Shown here: positions 1-21,455 of the stretch, piece after piece | Numbering within the stretch: the first letter of the stretch is position 1 | Layout of the letters: every line of letters begins with the position of its first letter | From: a virus | Direction: 5' to 3' (one strand) | Length of the DNA: 22,736 bases | IMG/VR virus record: IMGVR_UViG_3300008266_000952 | Coordinates: 3,184 to 25,919 of that record | The notes under the pieces: model-generated | The model's database searches: none | What the model saw: the letters and a program-made list of their open reading frames with translations, nothing else | Told to the model about the DNA's origin: nothing | Position numbers and translations under genes: made by a program

Positions 1-75
1 ACTGAAATTACGTCTTACACTTATCACTTTCACAAAAGTAATACCAACCCCTTGTAAACACTAGCTTATTACGGC

Positions 76-168
76 ATTACGTCTAAAGGGGTACGTTGAA
101 TCACAAAAAAAAAAAAAAAAAAAAATCACGGTCAACGTACCTATTATAGTACGCCGCACAGACGTAAT
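76..168. repeat. Nested inverted repeats around a poly-A tract
   Basis: An outer repeat ATTACGTCT (76-84) faces its exact complement AGACGTAAT (160-168). An inner perfect 10-bp repeat GGTACGTTGA (90-99) faces TCAACGTACC (132-141). The inner loop holds 21 A residues (105-125) bracketed by a direct repeat ATCAC (100-104 and 125-129). A further direct copy of ATTACGTCT lies at 7-15, and ACGTAAT recurs at 191-197. The layout could extrude as a cruciform with a homopolymer loop, or act as iterons around an AT-rich unwinding element. The function is inferred; the repeats are directly visible. Confidence 0.75.
105..125. repeat. 21-base poly-A homopolymer
   Basis: Twenty-one consecutive A residues lie at the centre of the inverted repeats. 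A homopolymer this long is unusual in a compact phage genome, and its exact length may be uncertain if it comes from assembly. Confidence 0.9.
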
Positions 169-331
169 AATCCTACTTATCAAGATAGAAACGTAATGGA
201 AAACGCGTACCCATTTAGTTTTTTCTATCGCTTCTCTTTCTTAACTTTCTATCAACAAAACCCCGGGCCATGGTCCATGATCCGTGCCCCTTTCCCCCTG
301 CCCAAAAGTACCCACATACGCCCGCCAGTTT

Positions 332-389
332 GGGGGTCTATTTTTATCGTTTTGTGGTGGGGGTGGGGGTTATACTTTGCCCGGGAGGG
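332..389 (+). other. G-rich tract with G-quadruplex potential
   Basis: Runs of five G lie at 332-336, 359-363 and 365-369, followed by GGG at 383-385 and 387-389. Four or more G runs on one strand could form a quadruplex, although the first loop would be long (22 bases). The stretch sits beside the AT-rich repeat region, so the base composition switches sharply within a few hundred bases. Confidence 0.35.
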
Positions 390-420
390 CATCCGTTTAG
401 GGTTGAACGCACCACGGCCC

Positions 421-446
421 GAATGAGAGAAAGGCGGGTGCCTTCC
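421..446 (-). terminator. Candidate terminator after the small-gene operon
   Basis: Read on the minus strand, GGAAGGC and GCCTTTC (446-440 and 435-429) form a 7-bp stem with one G-U pair and a four-base loop. A pyrimidine-rich tail TCTCATTC follows. It lies 18 bases past the stop codon of the last operon gene. The tail is a poor U tract, so termination may be weak. Confidence 0.35.
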
Positions 447-463
447 CGTCCTTGCCGGTTGTT

Positions 464-709
464 TTAGTGCGCAGTGATTGTCTTTGCGACAACCTTTGCC
501 ATTTCGGAGAAGAGGATGGGGTCGATGGTTTCGCCGAAGACGAAGTCGTTGATGTGGTCGTAGTCGGCTTCTTTGATCGGTGAGCCGAGGAACACGTATC
601 GTTGGCCGTTATCTGTGACGACGTAGAGCACCTGTACGCTTTCGCCTGCGGGCTGCTTTAAAAGGCTCTGGAGGGCCTCTGAAAAGCTTTTTTCCTCATC
701 CGTATCCAT
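464..709 (-). CDS. Small hypothetical protein, last gene of the operon
   Basis: This 81-residue acidic protein is of unknown function. The start is set at 709 because the ATG there has a near-perfect AAGGAGGT site five bases upstream; the in-frame ATG at 727 lies before that site. The protein has a charged N-terminus (MDTDEEKSFSEALQSLL), then alternating hydrophobic residues (VQVLYVVTDNGQRYVFLG) suggesting a beta hairpin, then a helical C-terminus. There is no signal peptide or membrane segment. The upstream gene ends two bases before this ATG, so translation is probably linked. I recognise no family. Confidence 0.75.
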   Translation of the reverse strand: MDTDEEKSFSEALQSLLKQPAGESVQVLYVVTDNGQRYVFLGSPIKEADYDHINDFVFGETIDPILFSEMAKVVAKTITAH

Positions 710-711
710 CC

Positions 712-978
712 CTACCTCCTTTTGCAAAAAGCCGTTCTAGCGGCCTGTAGGCCCTCTGTAGAGCTCCCTGTCCACCATTTAAGGCATGCGCCGTTTTGCT
801 GGGCTTCAGCATAACCTACTGCGCGTCCGGCGGCGCGTCCTTCTTTGTAGGCGGATTCTAGGAGTTCGGTGCAGGCGTTATCTTGGAGTTTCGTGGCCAG
901 TGTCCAGCCGAGGACGGCTCCTAGGAGGGCGAAGAGGCAGGCGAAGGTCAGGAGGAAGGTTCTTGGTGCGTGGTTCAC
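712..978 (-). CDS. Small membrane-anchored or exported protein
   Basis: This 88-residue protein begins with a hydrophobic helix (about residues 8-28, TFLLTFACLFALLGAVLGWTL), then a soluble region with Gly/Ala-rich helices (KEGRAAGRAVGYAEAQQNG). It could be a signal-anchor inner-membrane protein or have an uncleaved signal sequence. Four Cys (about residues 14, 36, 65 and 85), three of them beyond the hydrophobic helix, could form disulphides if the C-terminal part is periplasmic. The start codon is GTG, overlapping the stop of the upstream gene as GTGA, with no clear ribosome-binding site, so it is probably translated by coupling. A spanin or other lysis role was considered, but no lipobox or typical spanin arrangement is visible. 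Confidence 0.7.
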   Translation of the reverse strand: MNHAPRTFLLTFACLFALLGAVLGWTLATKLQDNACTELLESAYKEGRAAGRAVGYAEAQQNGACLKWWTGSSTEGLQAARTAFCKRR

Positions 979-1346
979 GGGACTTGTTTCTGTGTTTGTT
1001 TGATGAGGTCCCTGATTTCTTCGATGGACAGGAAGGTCTGGTCGTAGATTTTCAGGATCATTTGTGCTGAGACGAGTTGGGTTCCGCCTCGGATGCGGGA
1101 GACGCTGCCCATGGATATTTCCATGCGGTCGGCGAGGTCCTTATCGGACTCGACTTTGTAGAACTCCATCATCTTATCCAGCAATGGGTGGGGTTGTCTT
1201 TGCATGGTATTAGTTTTTTGCATAACTAGGAAGTAGGCGATCAGAATGCCTGAGATGGCCGCAGTTACGATGATGGTCATGATGTCCTCTAATAGTCCGT
1301 GGGTGGGTTCTTGGTCCTTGTCGCGTGATTCTTGATCCTCGCTCAT
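975..1346 (-). CDS. Membrane-anchored helix-turn-helix protein
   Basis: This 123-residue protein has three parts: an acidic N-terminal tail (1-20), a single hydrophobic span (about 22-42, IMTIIVTAAISGILIAYFL), and a C-terminal helix-turn-helix domain (about 54-112) with LADRMEISMGSVSRIRGG as the likely two-helix core. The C-terminal domain closely resembles the soluble protein encoded at 3350-3583, and both carry VSAQMILKI. The ATG at 1346 has a good GAGGAGG site and overlaps the previous stop as ATGA. Internal ATGs after the membrane span have no ribosome-binding site, so the fusion looks real. The family (Cro/CI-like) is inferred from the helix pattern. A transcription regulator tethered to the inner membrane is the likely form. 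Confidence 0.75.
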   Translation of the reverse strand: MSEDQESRDKDQEPTHGLLEDIMTIIVTAAISGILIAYFLVMQKTNTMQRQPHPLLDKMMEFYKVESDKDLADRMEISMGSVSRIRGGTQLVSAQMILKIYDQTFLSIEEIRDLIKQTQKQVP

Positions 1347-3349: not shown

Positions 3350-3583
3350 TTAGACGATGTCGTCGTCAGGGCAATATTCCAAAAGCTCTTCGACAGGGAC
3401 GCGGGTCAAGAGGTGGATTTTTAAAATCATCTGGGCGCTGACTTTGTTAGTGCCGTTGCGGATTTTGGAAATGCAAGAGGGCTGAACGCTTAGGGCGTTT
3501 GCCAAGAGGCCGTCTTCTGTTATGTCCAAATGTTCCTTAACCGCGTCAAGTAGCTCGTGAGCATTGGTCAGTGTTCTGGGCAT
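3350..3583 (-). CDS. Cro/CI-like helix-turn-helix protein
   Basis: This 77-residue protein is almost entirely a helix-turn-helix domain (about residues 11-66). LLANALSVQPSCISKIRNG fits the two DNA-contacting helices, followed by VSAQMILKIHLLT and an acidic tail (PDDDIV). The product of 975-1346 shares the same domain at its C-terminus. This one has no membrane segment. TAGGAG precedes the ATG. The likely role is a small phage repressor or antirepressor-type regulator; the target is unknown. The regular tail EELLEY after the helices is typical of small phage-type regulators. Confidence 0.8.
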   Translation of the reverse strand: MPRTLTNAHELLDAVKEHLDITEDGLLANALSVQPSCISKIRNGTNKVSAQMILKIHLLTRVPVEELLEYCPDDDIV

Positions 3584-8377: not shown

Positions 8378-8612
8378 CTTCGATGGAACTCTTCCAGAGG
8401 ATGATGGGCTGGGTGTCCCCTGCAAACTTGAAGACGAATTCTCGTTCTATGTATTCTGCCGCCTCTTGTTCGCCCATGCTGTCCTCCTCTACCAAGATGC
8501 GGATCATTTCCATGGCGTCGTAGATGAGGCGCTCGACCAGTTGATCCCCATGCCACGTGGTGCAGATGCCTAGTTCCGCATCCTTGAATTTTTGAAGTTC
8601 TAGGATTTCCAT
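8364..8612 (-). CDS. Small acidic protein between primase and helicase
   Basis: This 82-residue acidic protein begins MEILELQKFKDAELGICTTW, has a helix with many Glu (EEDSMGEQEAAEYIEREF), and ends SSIEDEDS. Its ATG overlaps the primase stop (TAATG), and its end overlaps the helicase start by 14 bases, so the three are translationally coupled. The position suggests a replication accessory protein, but no family is recognised. Another frame of similar length here is a shadow: it lacks coupling and its composition looks non-coding. Confidence 0.75.
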   Translation of the reverse strand: MEILELQKFKDAELGICTTWHGDQLVERLIYDAMEMIRILVEEDSMGEQEAAEYIEREFVFKFAGDTQPIILWKSSIEDEDS

Positions 8613-10141
8613 TAGAACGGCGCTCCTTTCTGTTGTGGTGTTTCAAACGGTGTCTCTTGACGCGTGAACCGTGGTACGCGCCACGCTCTCACTGCTCGGC
8701 CTTTAAGGAACAGGCTGATCGGTTCGCCGCCCAGATCACGGATTTTTTGTGCCATGCGTGGGGCACTCATGCCATTAAAACTGCTGCGCTTCAAATGTGC
8801 TTCGAGGTCCTTCATACGGAAGTACACGCGTGCTTCATCTTCGTCGGTCCAAGGACGGCCCATGAGAATCTCCTCACGGTCCATCGCTTGTTGCAAGTGT
8901 GTGGTGAACTCTTCTAACAGGTCTTGGAAACGACCGCTGTAGCTTGTGTCTTCTGGTGCATCCTGTATCTGCTCAAGCTCCACCATTTCACGTAGCAGCC
9001 CGTTCAAGAAGCTTTCCCAATCCTGTCTACGCAGGGTGGGTGGGAGCACGTTCAATCGTTCAACACAGGCCTTTTGAAAAGCGGGTTGATTAAACAGCTG
9101 GTCTGTGTCTAGTTCAATGCGACGACCATTAACATCCAAGAACCACAAGGGCGGTTCAGAGTTGTATTTGGTAAGGCTGGATATCTTCGGTGCATCTGGG
9201 CCATCAGCACCTATGCCATGCTTGCGAGTACGACATAGGCCTGAATTGCAGAAGGAGTTTAAAGGTGCGTCTTTGCACTTGTACTTGTAGTCTTTTTTGT
9301 GCAGCTGCTTCGTGATCACCTGAAGTTCGTTCATGGGCAGAGGTGGCCCCATGTACTTCAGGTTGTACTCCATCAGTTTATCTTCCCAGTTGCTGCCATT
9401 CGCTTTCTTGAGGTAGATCGCGATATTAAATAATCCGTTGTTGCGAGTGCCTTCCGGAAATCCCTGATTGCATAGCGCCTGTAGGCAGGGCGGTCCATCT
9501 TTGATGGGAGCATCCGCGTCCTTTTTTTCCTCTTCCGGATGAACGAGCGGCAGTTCTTGAACGTGCTGTTCGTAAAGCCCGTAGAACTGATCAAGTGAGG
9601 CAGCCGTGCCATCATCATTGATCGCGTAACGCAGGGTTTCATCGCCCCCGTGATACGGAAGGTTAAGGAAGTTACCCGTGTCACCGCGCTCAACAAGTAC
9701 TTCAGTTTGTTTCGGAAAAATTTCACGGCCACTTTCTCCCAGTATGCTTGCACAAGTGATTAAATACCGCTGCATCTCTGCTGCGGCGACCGGTTCTTTT
9801 GTAAACAGGAAGACGTGTGCACCACCCGACTTGCTTCTGCAAACTACGAGGGGGAGTTTTAACCGACGTATTTTTTCCACCAACCCTTTATGGTCCAGTG
9901 GATATTGGTCAATATCAATGCAGCCCCATATGCAAGTGTTGTCAGGACGAATAGGAATGATGCCAAGAGAAGGCTCAACGCCTTCAAGATGAGCGATCCA
10001 TAGGTCATCCGTAGGCGGCTTTCTGACGACGACCGCCTTGCCTGCTTGTTTACCATTGTCCTTCTCCCGCTCAATCCGGTAGGTGCCATAGGCGATATCT
10101 GAGCCTTCAAATATCGACTTGAATTTTGCGATGTCAGTCAT
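8612..10141 (-). CDS. Archaeo-eukaryotic-type primase (PrimPol-like)
   Basis: This 509-residue protein is a primase, probably making primers for the phage polymerase. The catalytic core shows CIDIDQY (about 74-80, DxD metal ligands), SKSGGAHVFLF (103-113, the s-x-H motif), and FPKQ (142-145) with GNFLNLPYH (156-164), a pattern of archaeo-eukaryotic primases. A second domain (about 215-310) has GTRNNGLFNIAIYL and four conserved-looking Cys (about 219, 289, 298, 303) that could bind zinc or an iron-sulphur cluster, as in primase C-terminal domains. The last ~180 residues are helical and end KGAPF. No helicase domain is fused. A weak AGAAAGAAG site precedes the ATG, and a terminator-like hairpin lies upstream. 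Confidence 0.85.
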   Translation of the reverse strand: MTDIAKFKSIFEGSDIAYGTYRIEREKDNGKQAGKAVVVRKPPTDDLWIAHLEGVEPSLGIIPIRPDNTCIWGCIDIDQYPLDHKGLVEKIRRLKLPLVVCRSKSGGAHVFLFTKEPVAAAEMQRYLITCASILGESGREIFPKQTEVLVERGDTGNFLNLPYHGGDETLRYAINDDGTAASLDQFYGLYEQHVQELPLVHPEEEKKDADAPIKDGPPCLQALCNQGFPEGTRNNGLFNIAIYLKKANGSNWEDKLMEYNLKYMGPPLPMNELQVITKQLHKKDYKYKCKDAPLNSFCNSGLCRTRKHGIGADGPDAPKISSLTKYNSEPPLWFLDVNGRRIELDTDQLFNQPAFQKACVERLNVLPPTLRRQDWESFLNGLLREMVELEQIQDAPEDTSYSGRFQDLLEEFTTHLQQAMDREEILMGRPWTDEDEARVYFRMKDLEAHLKRSSFNGMSAPRMAQKIRDLGGEPISLFLKGRAVRAWRVPRFTRQETPFETPQQKGAPF

Positions 10142-18331: not shown

Positions 18332-20301
18332 TATTGCCTCACACGAAGATCAGAGCCATTCCACAAAAAGGGTGTGCCAGAATCAAGTTTCTGTACTTCC
18401 TTGATCGTGTATATACGAACGGGTACGCCAAGTTTAGGCCTGAAGTTTTCAATCAGAGTTTTAATACGGGCATGCTCTTTACGCTGATCTACAGGCAGTG
18501 TGGAATTCGTTGAATTGCGTTCCGCATCCCTTAGTCGACCCATCAAGAAATTGTCTATACCGATCAGCTTGTTACGAAGTTTTGCAGGATCGTCAAAGAA
18601 ACGTGGCTCGACGTTCAATTCGTCTTCAATTGCCTTACGTTCCGCTTGTGCATATACGTTACTGGTTTGCAGACTCTTAACGAGCTCACGAAAATCGCCA
18701 AGGTAACGAGAGCGTGCTTGCGTCACATCCTTGCCTACATCACCAAAACCCGGAATGCTGGAGACTACGTCTTTTGCTGTGGGAATAGGACCCGTTAAAA
18801 TAGGTGTTAATTCCCATAGAGTAGGCTCTTTCCCTGCTTTCGCTACAGTGGGAGTGGGCGCAGGTCCTTGGTCCGTGGTCACTGCACCAGCAGTAGACGG
18901 CACTGCTGCGGTGCCCGGAGGTATTTCCGAAACAGGTCTATCAGCAGGCGCAACCCCTTTCTTACCGCCTTTAGAAGGAACAGCGGGTGTTGGTATGTTT
19001 TTGCGCAAGCTAAGTGCGTTAGTCACGAAATTCGGAATAGGCGGATCACGACGTGTCACATTTCCCGTGAAAGGATCAGTGTAATAAGTCGGCTCACTAA
19101 CAATTGCATAGGAGCTTTCAAACCGGCGATCCATTTCTGGATTCAGCTTCCCTGCCCCATATTCAGGAGCAAACCGCGTAACAAAGTTCCATGCAGCACC
19201 CTTGAGCCCAGAACCAAAGCCCTGTCCTTTTGCTGCTGCCTTGACGATGTCGGCAGAGGCCTTGCGCTGCGAATCCAACAGCTTGTAGTTGTATTCGCGA
19301 ATGACCGCGATGTCCTTCTCACCTGCTTGCAGCGCCAAGAGCTTCGCTTCGCGCTGGGCCTTGGAGAGCTCACCCGCACGTGCGCCGATCAATGCAGGCA
19401 CGTTACGCATGCCTGCTGCAATACGGCTAATTGGGGAGGCAGAGCCGCGAACAGGACGACCTTCGGCATCTACGCCCCCAGCCACGTTCAAGGCTCCTTG
19501 CGCAAGATCAAACAGCATCTGCGCCTGCACCGCCTCTTTGTCCGTACCCAGCAATCGCTGATACAAAGGCAAACGCGTAGCCATCGCCTGCTCAAGAGAA
19601 GGAGATTGCTGGGGCCTTTCTGACATCAGATTTGCCAAGTCTCTTTGCGCTCTTTCGACCAGTTCTGGAGGGTAGAAGGCACCTTGGCCTCCTGCGTCTA
19701 CTAGGGTCACGCCCTCCTCATCGGACCCCTGTTGAAAATGCTGCACAATCCCCCCGTTCCTCATGGCAATCGGGGCTTGTTGTTCAGCCGCAGCAGGTAA
19801 GGAACCAATCCCGCTCGGAGGCGCTGCTTCTGGAGCAGGCATCGGAGGAGGCGTGGTCTGTGGGCCTTGGTCCATGGCGGCTAAATCAGCAACCCCGCCT
19901 GCCGGTGCAGCCATCGGGCCGGGTGGGGTAGGGCCCATCATCGGTGCTGGAGGTTGCGCCATCGTGGCTTGTTGAGCCAAAACAGGCTGCAAGAGCGCCA
20001 AGACTTCAGTGGGAGTCTCTGAGGCTGCGCGGTATCCTACGAGGTCCGCAAGCTCTTCCACACGAGCGTCTACCGAGCGCATGTCGCCACGTAGGTTGTT
20101 CATCAGGATTTCAGGCGAGTCAGGGCGACGATCCAGCATCTTGCCCATATCGCTTTCATCATCGTCTTCTTCCATCTCATCCAAGTCTTCAAACTGATCC
20201 ATGAAGCCTTGCATGATGCCTACATTGTCCACCTCGTCAGGCGCAACAGATGCCCCTTTCTTTTTGAACAGAGGCCTGTCAATTACTTTCGATTTCATCA
20301 T
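18331..20301 (-). CDS. Probable virion protein with acidic and Pro-rich N-terminal regions
   Basis: This 656-residue protein (654-656 depending on which of two adjacent ATGs is used; the second is better spaced from AGGAGG) has an acidic stretch (QFEDLDEMEEDDDESDMG) followed by SPEILMNNLRGDMRSVDARV, a segment I recall as conserved in phage structural proteins. Next come a Pro/Ala/Met-rich linker (about 110-180) and MRNGGIVQHFQQGSDEEG, then helical and low-complexity parts. The basic C-terminal region has YAQAERKAIEDELNVEPRFF. It is probably a tail-related or internal virion protein; no enzyme motif is seen. Confidence 0.75.
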   Translation of the reverse strand: MMKSKVIDRPLFKKKGASVAPDEVDNVGIMQGFMDQFEDLDEMEEDDDESDMGKMLDRRPDSPEILMNNLRGDMRSVDARVEELADLVGYRAASETPTEVLALLQPVLAQQATMAQPPAPMMGPTPPGPMAAPAGGVADLAAMDQGPQTTPPPMPAPEAAPPSGIGSLPAAAEQQAPIAMRNGGIVQHFQQGSDEEGVTLVDAGGQGAFYPPELVERAQRDLANLMSERPQQSPSLEQAMATRLPLYQRLLGTDKEAVQAQMLFDLAQGALNVAGGVDAEGRPVRGSASPISRIAAGMRNVPALIGARAGELSKAQREAKLLALQAGEKDIAVIREYNYKLLDSQRKASADIVKAAAKGQGFGSGLKGAAWNFVTRFAPEYGAGKLNPEMDRRFESSYAIVSEPTYYTDPFTGNVTRRDPPIPNFVTNALSLRKNIPTPAVPSKGGKKGVAPADRPVSEIPPGTAAVPSTAGAVTTDQGPAPTPTVAKAGKEPTLWELTPILTGPIPTAKDVVSSIPGFGDVGKDVTQARSRYLGDFRELVKSLQTSNVYAQAERKAIEDELNVEPRFFDDPAKLRNKLIGIDNFLMGRLRDAERNSTNSTLPVDQRKEHARIKTLIENFRPKLGVPVRIYTIKEVQKLDSGTPFLWNGSDLRVRQ

Positions 20302-20306
20302 TCCTC

Positions 20307-21455
20307 CTAGAACAAGCCTGCTTTCTTAGCACCCGCTGCCGCAGTAATGCCCGCAAACCCTGTAGCCAATGCAGAGGTCAACGGGCTGGGGGACGGAGCC
20401 GTAGCCGATGTGATTGACGTTTGACTACCCGGAGTCTTGGACAAAATATCCGACTGGAAAGACAACAACTGGTAGGGCAAGAAGGCTTCCTGCGTCTTTG
20501 TTGCCCGCAGGGCATCCAGACGTGCCTGCTGCAGGGCTTGTTCTTGTCCACCGATCTGCGAAAGCAGCGCAATGTCTGCTTGACCGAGTTGCTGTTGCAG
20601 TCCTGCCAGATTGGCGCGTTGACCGGCCTGTTGACCCAGTTGCGCACCCATTGCACCCAAAGCGCCACCTTGTTGCAGCCCAAACTGACCCTGCTGCAGA
20701 CCTAGGCCACCAATACCTTGGGCGAGTTGACTGTAAAGGTTTGCCTGTCCACCCAGAATATTTGCTTGCTGGCCAGTGGCAGACAGCTGACGTTGTTGCT
20801 GGGCCTCGAAAGCCTGTTGCGCGGCTTGCTGTGCTTGGAGGTAATTCTGTGCGTAATCTTGTGCAATACGCTGGCCCATGACATCCATCAAGCCCCGTTG
20901 CATCTCTGCACGTTGAACGCCCTCACGGGTTCCGCCAAAAGCCCCACTACGCACTGCCTGAGCAGCTTGGGTCTGGGAGGCAATATCTGCCTGCCGCTGC
21001 ATCTCACGCAGCGCGTTTGCCGTCACCTGCTGCTGATACGGATTCATGAACGCAACGGCTTGCGACGGATCATAAGCACCCGTTGCCTGCCCTGCCGCAG
21101 CAGCAAGCTTGCCTATGTCTCCTGCAACGCCCGCCCCTGCCTGATACGCGCCGTAAGCCGCAGCCAAGGGCTGTGCGACGTTCAAGCCTGCGATACCTTG
21201 AGCAGCTTGCTGGGTCAGTTGCTGCCCCGCCACCATGCCTTTTTCAGCTTCGCTCAGAAGGGGCTGATATGCCCCGATTCCCTGCTCTGCAAGGTTTCTG
21301 GCTTGTATCTGCCCTGCGCCAAGTCCGGCTACTTCGTAGCCGGGTATGGTCATAGGAGTCCGGACCTGAGCCTCAGCTGATTTGAGAAGGGCAAGTCTGG
21401 CCCGTTCAATCTCTGGGGATTCTTGGATTGTTTGTACTTGATATTCAGTTGCCAT
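20307..21455 (-). CDS. Ala/Gln/Gly-rich probable virion protein
   Basis: This 382-residue protein is mostly helical and rich in Ala, Gln and Gly, with repeated LGLQQGQFGLQQGGALG-like units. Its core FMNPYQQQVTANALREMQRQ followed by AVRSGAFGGTREGVQRAEMQ is a pattern I recall from phage structural proteins. A Gly/Ala-rich C-terminal stretch (ALATGFAGITAAAGAKKAGL) could be membrane-active. The ATG at 21455 follows the upstream stop by three bases. Role in the virion inferred. Confidence 0.75.
   Translation of the reverse strand: MATEYQVQTIQESPEIERARLALLKSAEAQVRTPMTIPGYEVAGLGAGQIQARNLAEQGIGAYQPLLSEAEKGMVAGQQLTQQAAQGIAGLNVAQPLAAAYGAYQAGAGVAGDIGKLAAAAGQATGAYDPSQAVAFMNPYQQQVTANALREMQRQADIASQTQAAQAVRSGAFGGTREGVQRAEMQRGLMDVMGQRIAQDYAQNYLQAQQAAQQAFEAQQQRQLSATGQQANILGGQANLYSQLAQGIGGLGLQQGQFGLQQGGALGAMGAQLGQQAGQRANLAGLQQQLGQADIALLSQIGGQEQALQQARLDALRATKTQEAFLPYQLLSFQSDILSKTPGSQTSITSATAPSPSPLTSALATGFAGITAAAGAKKAGLF

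Follow-up and report, generated by a model that had tools for sequence, protein, structure and literature searches.

The poly-A tract near the start of this virus DNA is one part of a conserved non-coding control element of about 220 bases that adjoins the small terminase gene, terS, and the carriers of this element are a family of uncultured lake phages, Dishuiviridae-type tailed phage. The window (the whole stretch of 22,736 nucleotides analysed here) comprises bases 3184–25919 of a 25,919-bp virus contig and holds the right half of the element; the left half lies beyond a scaffold gap. The element is real, conserved and larger than the first-pass annotation of this DNA stated, and a role as a pac site or as an origin of replication is its candidate function, the packaging reading leading and the origin reading coming second. 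The Dishuiviridae group is so far known from metagenomes only, and the element gives a precise location for such a cis site. No description of a cis packaging or origin site for the group was found in the literature; in the text of the paper proposing 'Dishuiviridae', the term 'cos' occurs 0 times and 'origin' once (PMC10611076).

In window orientation, the element consists of an arm (L), an A/T tract, a GC-rich core, a TTAC block, ATTAC-type repeats, a second A/T tract and a second arm (R). The core is bracketed by L and R, whose outer span is mostly 216–253 bp. It usually reads CGCGCGCA (GCGCGCA), followed by CCCC or TTTT; the variants CGCGCGCTCCCT and, in G015, TCGCGGAGCCCC show that it is not invariant. 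A 13-N scaffold gap (G000:C1:3171–3183, which is L082:3171–3183) splits the element and abuts window base 1, the first base past the gap. Sequence comparison places the conserved core where this gap sits; in the close relatives G001, G002 and G007, which have 79–82% identity to the region, the sequence hidden by the gap is CCCGCGCGCGCACCCCGTAAATTT. Just before the 13 N the sequence is CTATATTGGTACGTTGACCAAAAAAA, and the repeat carries on there. The assemblies of relatives are likewise often broken inside the element.

All parts of the structure described in the first-pass annotation were recovered, and several take a new place in this plan. The ATTACGTCT repeat at 7–15 (plus strand) is the first copy past the gap hiding the core, and aligns with TAATTACGTC/AATTACACT of relatives. 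The ATTAC-type repeats TTATTACGGCATTACGTCT at 66–84 (plus strand) form a conserved interior block, which in most relatives reads TTATTACACC-ATTACGTCT; such repeats are often near-tandem at 9-bp spacing (TTATTACACC-ATTACGTCT-ATTACGTC). The outer 9-bp inverted repeat pairs ATTACGTCT at 76–84 with AGACGTAAT at 160–168, and the perfect 10-bp inverted repeat pairs GGTACGTTGA at 90–99 with TCAACGTACC at 132–141. The left half of this latter hairpin belongs to a middle arm, M (90–104, plus strand), made of GGTACGTTGA and ATCAC; the two ATCAC copies lie at 100–104 and 125–129, around a run of 21 A at 105–125 (plus strand), where relatives have an A/T tract of varying length and purity. Arm R, GGTCAACGTACCTATTATAG, occupies 130–149 on the minus strand; its minus-strand reading, CTATAATAGGTACGTTGACC, is identical in 18 of 20 columns to its partner arm L, which lies left of the window at G000:C1:3145–3163. 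As the outside arm matches minus-strand R, the box is present three times, in L (outside, left), in M (90–99) and, inverted, in R (132–141). Directly outside R is an inverted ATTAC-type repeat, AGACGTAATAA (160–170, minus strand), and the outermost copy is ACGTAAT (191–197, minus strand).

That the structure is not due to chance rests mainly on relatives, which conserve the element around it. The window contains a single perfect 10-bp inverted repeat whose loop is 40 or shorter, and the Markov mean is 0.99; being at chance level, that hairpin is by itself no proof of anything. The motif ATTACGTC has four copies in the window, three of them within these 200 bp, against an expectation of 0.45 (0 of 100 shuffles reach four), and the strand at 60–200 folds better than its shuffles (z −3.34). 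An Rfam search for structured RNA gave no match up to E = 1. A homologous element was found when the structure was sought in relatives. Further loci were gathered by core and flank pattern scans and by TerS search, and the comparison set drawn from them consists of 43 dereplicated elements, 15 of CCCC type and 28 of TTTT type, across which the core and interior repeats are conserved. The element is also present in DSL-LC04 (OR003939), a relative in GenBank whose sequence was assembled from lake metagenome data (PMC10611076); there the core is at 20,607 and terS at 19,130–19,963. An exact core pattern search of bacterial genomes gave 0 matches; the pelagiphages HTVC023P and HTVC027P have a related TerS, yet no CGCGCG in the stretches compared. 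Two loci, L120 and L130, probably match the core pattern by chance, their flanks being unlike the element.

Wherever its place was examined, the element is found upstream of terS. The distance from core to TerS start is 48–505 bp in the first set of relatives, and the same arrangement holds in the 96 element-bearing loci with terS in reach and in DSL-LC04. TerS matches Terminase_2 (PF03592) in Pfam with E 5e-8 (the DSL-LC04 protein is sub-threshold, E 0.001) and belongs to the SF6 TerS family; its nearest solved structures by phmmer are the small terminases 4zc3, 3zqp and 2cmp. The DSL-LC04 large terminase has a Terminase_6C domain. Between element and terS, most loci encode a conserved protein of 72–86 aa. 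Here it has 86 aa (L082:2800–3060, minus strand) and weak likeness to DUF7303; its predicted model is confident (pLDDT 88) and found no informative match in the PDB, and among viral proteins it matches mainly uncharacterised ones of phages, with one match annotated as having a DnaA C-terminal domain. On the other side, the right-hand neighbour changes among relatives, being the 87-aa ORF, an HNH gene or unrelated ORFs; the 87-aa small protein (464–727, minus strand) is the neighbour in many relatives, not all, and is context outside the element. The first-pass annotation had proposed a cis-acting origin or terminus that no gene explains, which is a fair class for an element that is non-coding, conserved and placed upstream of terS.

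L and R are matched within a phage and differ between phages (GGTACGTTGACC, GGTATGTTGACC, GGATACTTCCCACG, GATACACTCTCT, TTAGTTAGACTTTTTT and others). Each L was scored against the reverse complement of R, and own pairs were compared with 10,000 shuffled pairings, with the relatedness of the phages left in. On this basis the own-pair sum was 712 for the 15 CCCC-type elements, where shuffling gave a mean of 423 (sd 35), and 1381 for the 28 TTTT-type elements, where it gave 1052 (sd 50); for each type, 0 of the 10,000 shuffled pairings were as good. The result is the same for the mid-arm portion, from which the A/T tracts are largely excluded. By this measure, L and R are the two arms of an inverted repeat that keep their match to each other as their sequence changes from phage to phage. 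The arms of this maintained repeat are 130–149 and the arm outside the window, not 90–99 and 132–141. The proposed cruciform with a homopolymer loop found no support, since the pairing of 90–99 with 132–141 shows no covariation and is imperfect in the closest relatives, and since the A-run differs in length among relatives or is interrupted by other bases. As a conserved feature it is rejected, M–R pairing being matched or beaten by 2,482 of 10,000 shuffles; the alignments indicate that what is conserved at the A-run is an A/T tract, not a homopolymer loop.

Paired arms that are kept matched during sequence turnover, even with a constant TerS, are an unusual evolutionary signature. Loci L187 and L197 have 100% identical TerS and an identical small protein, and L arms that are 49% identical, so arm sequence is not dictated by TerS or by the small protein. 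TerS alone cannot account for sequence-specific recognition of the arms and is probably not what recognises them in this way, and constant TerS with changing arms makes the question of who reads the site directly testable. The DNA-binding domain of SF6 TerS shows no sequence specificity when it binds to pac DNA (PMC4737164), and by analogy TerS could possibly read the arms by shape. Alternatively, the matching might come from another host or phage protein, from a pairing requirement, or from recombinational homogenisation without selection. In several elements, among them L159, L170 and L208, the two arms match poorly, and arms behave as if they were recombined or exchanged as modules. A long shot is that the arms serve as a code for self-recognition, in which L and R have to match and this match, through base pairing or a shared adaptor, selects the concatemer that is cut or replicated; were this true, arms would drift or swap independently of TerS, and co-infecting relatives would not use each other's DNA.

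We tentatively favour, at somewhat below even odds, the reading of the element as a candidate packaging-initiation (pac-like) site upstream of terS, resembling pacL-pacC-pacR of SPP1. Under this model, a TerS ring and TerL would assemble on bent, A/T-tract-rich DNA between the matched inverted arms L and R, the ATTAC-type repeats would serve as internal binding sites of terminase, and TerL would cleave the concatemer in the GC-rich core, which usually reads CGCGCGCA, or close to it, whereupon packaging, presumably by the headful mechanism, would begin. In SPP1, the TerS sites pacL and pacR flank the cleavage site pacC, and pac overlaps the terS promoters (PMC6316719). The element shares with SPP1/SF6-type pac its position as a cis element at terS, immediately upstream and usually with one small ORF between; a Terminase_2-family TerS; two flanks around a centre, here covarying arms that bracket the core at the sequence level; and A/T-rich DNA. 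It is unlike them in that its arms are matched, inverted and change together, whereas pacL and pacR share no identity (PMC4856287), and in its additional ATTAC repeats and CGCGCGCA core. Intrinsic bending is a property of SPP1 pacL, and lambda cos requires a static bend formed by poly-dA (PMC4856287); the curvature of the element predicted with wedge parameters is in the top 2–7% of the genome in four of five cases, a value that is only suggestive.

The ends of contigs bear on both packaging and the idea that the core is a physical genome end, either a fixed cos or the terminus of a long direct terminal repeat. The 67,995-bp contig G003 has a 4,367-bp terminal redundancy (G003:C1:1–4600 / 63000–67995, L215/L216) and ends mid-core (...GTCCCGCGCG). 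The core is also near-palindromic and GC-rich, and is spanned by the N gap of this record. Like lambda-type cos (cosQ-cosN-cosB), the element has A-tracts and a core that is GC-rich and dyad-like, located upstream of terS where the packaging genes begin, with repeated sites next to it. Its sites, however, lie on both sides of the core, not one, and several family genomes are circular through the core: four near-complete contigs (G006, G015, G017 and G022) circularise with the core internal. Only a single contig ends in the core, and its opposite end, in GC-rich low-complexity sequence, may be an assembly break. Other contigs cross the core or break around it; their ends within the element are scattered between about −140 and +180 relative to the core, and the survey of contig ends found no pile-up at the core except G003, which speaks against sharp genome ends there. 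A fixed terminus is an unlikely explanation, and circular contigs without fixed ends are compatible with headful packaging.

A replication origin is the main rival to a packaging site and deserves a modest share of belief. The 9-bp ATTAC-type repeats would be iterons, the A/T tracts an unwinding element, and L and R sites for an initiator or helper, possibly in a rolling-circle origin that acts late and is coupled to packaging. The ATTAC repeats are near-tandem, and in five of six complete relatives the 150 bp with the highest AT content of the whole genome lie at the element, providing a local AT-rich region of the kind that unwinds at origins; this position suits an origin and a packaging site equally well. 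Short repeats, an AT-rich stretch and inverted repeats converging on poly-A are shared with iteron origins of the RepA_N type and with SPP1 oriL/oriR, and RepA_N iterons with inverted repeats converging on poly-A, as well as an ICP1 pac site near a predicted rolling-circle origin, are described (PMC7145576). The element differs from these origins in its place beside terS, where it does not adjoin the replication gene block, in its central CG-rich core, in its inconsistent skew and in lacking a RepA_N protein. Such an initiator was found in 0 of 11 family records, by which a RepA_N iteron origin is rejected; the iteron-flanked origin of the first-pass annotation stands as a rival without that initiator. 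A cumulative skew check, also proposed there, was run on the six complete relatives with divided outcome: the detrended GC-skew minimum lies +356 bp (G003) and +367 bp (G015) from the core, but 5.5–13 kb off in the other four. In third-codon-position skew, the core is the best boundary in G003 only, near-best in G015 and ordinary elsewhere. A site that combines a late origin with packaging, an arrangement suggested for ICP1 (PMC7145576), would by analogy fit both sets of facts.

It is improbable, though less so than a fixed terminus, that the element serves transcription control, with L and R as operators of terS and the right-hand genes or as phage promoters for them, in which a variable box follows a TATA-like outer end, kept matched by one regulator such as the nearby Cro/CI-type HTH proteins. 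A TATA-like CTATA stands at the outer end of both L and R, GGGTACGTT-like boxes occur near the start of the terS operon, and boxes that change together in several copies fit a co-evolving regulator. Two related small Cro/CI-type HTH proteins are encoded at window positions 975–1346 and 3350–3583 (both minus strand). A search of window 1–1000, however, found no sigma-70-like promoter; the arm sequences occur nowhere else in most sequence searched (0 extra copies in 28 loci), which also counts for the packaging reading; and a regulator alone leaves the conserved CGCGCGCA core unexplained. With most neighbouring genes running leftward, rightward transcription from a promoter at L would be antisense. 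Chance or an assembly artefact, namely a homopolymer and AT-rich repeats beside a scaffold gap, is very improbable. The window does begin at a 13-N gap, its 10-bp inverted repeat is unremarkable when taken alone, and homopolymer length is unreliable in short-read assemblies, but the 43 dereplicated homologous forms come from many independent assemblies, GenBank OR003939 has the element as well, and the homologous elements of relatives already contradict this explanation.

Two further observations concern genes of the window. The HTH protein at 975–1346 is fused to a hydrophobic N-terminal segment, and the matching stretch is interrupted by stops in the relatives G001, G002 and G020. At 8612–10141 (minus strand), the window encodes a phage primase-like protein that matches Pfam AEP-TOTE, the archaeo-eukaryotic primase domain found in TOTE conflict systems.
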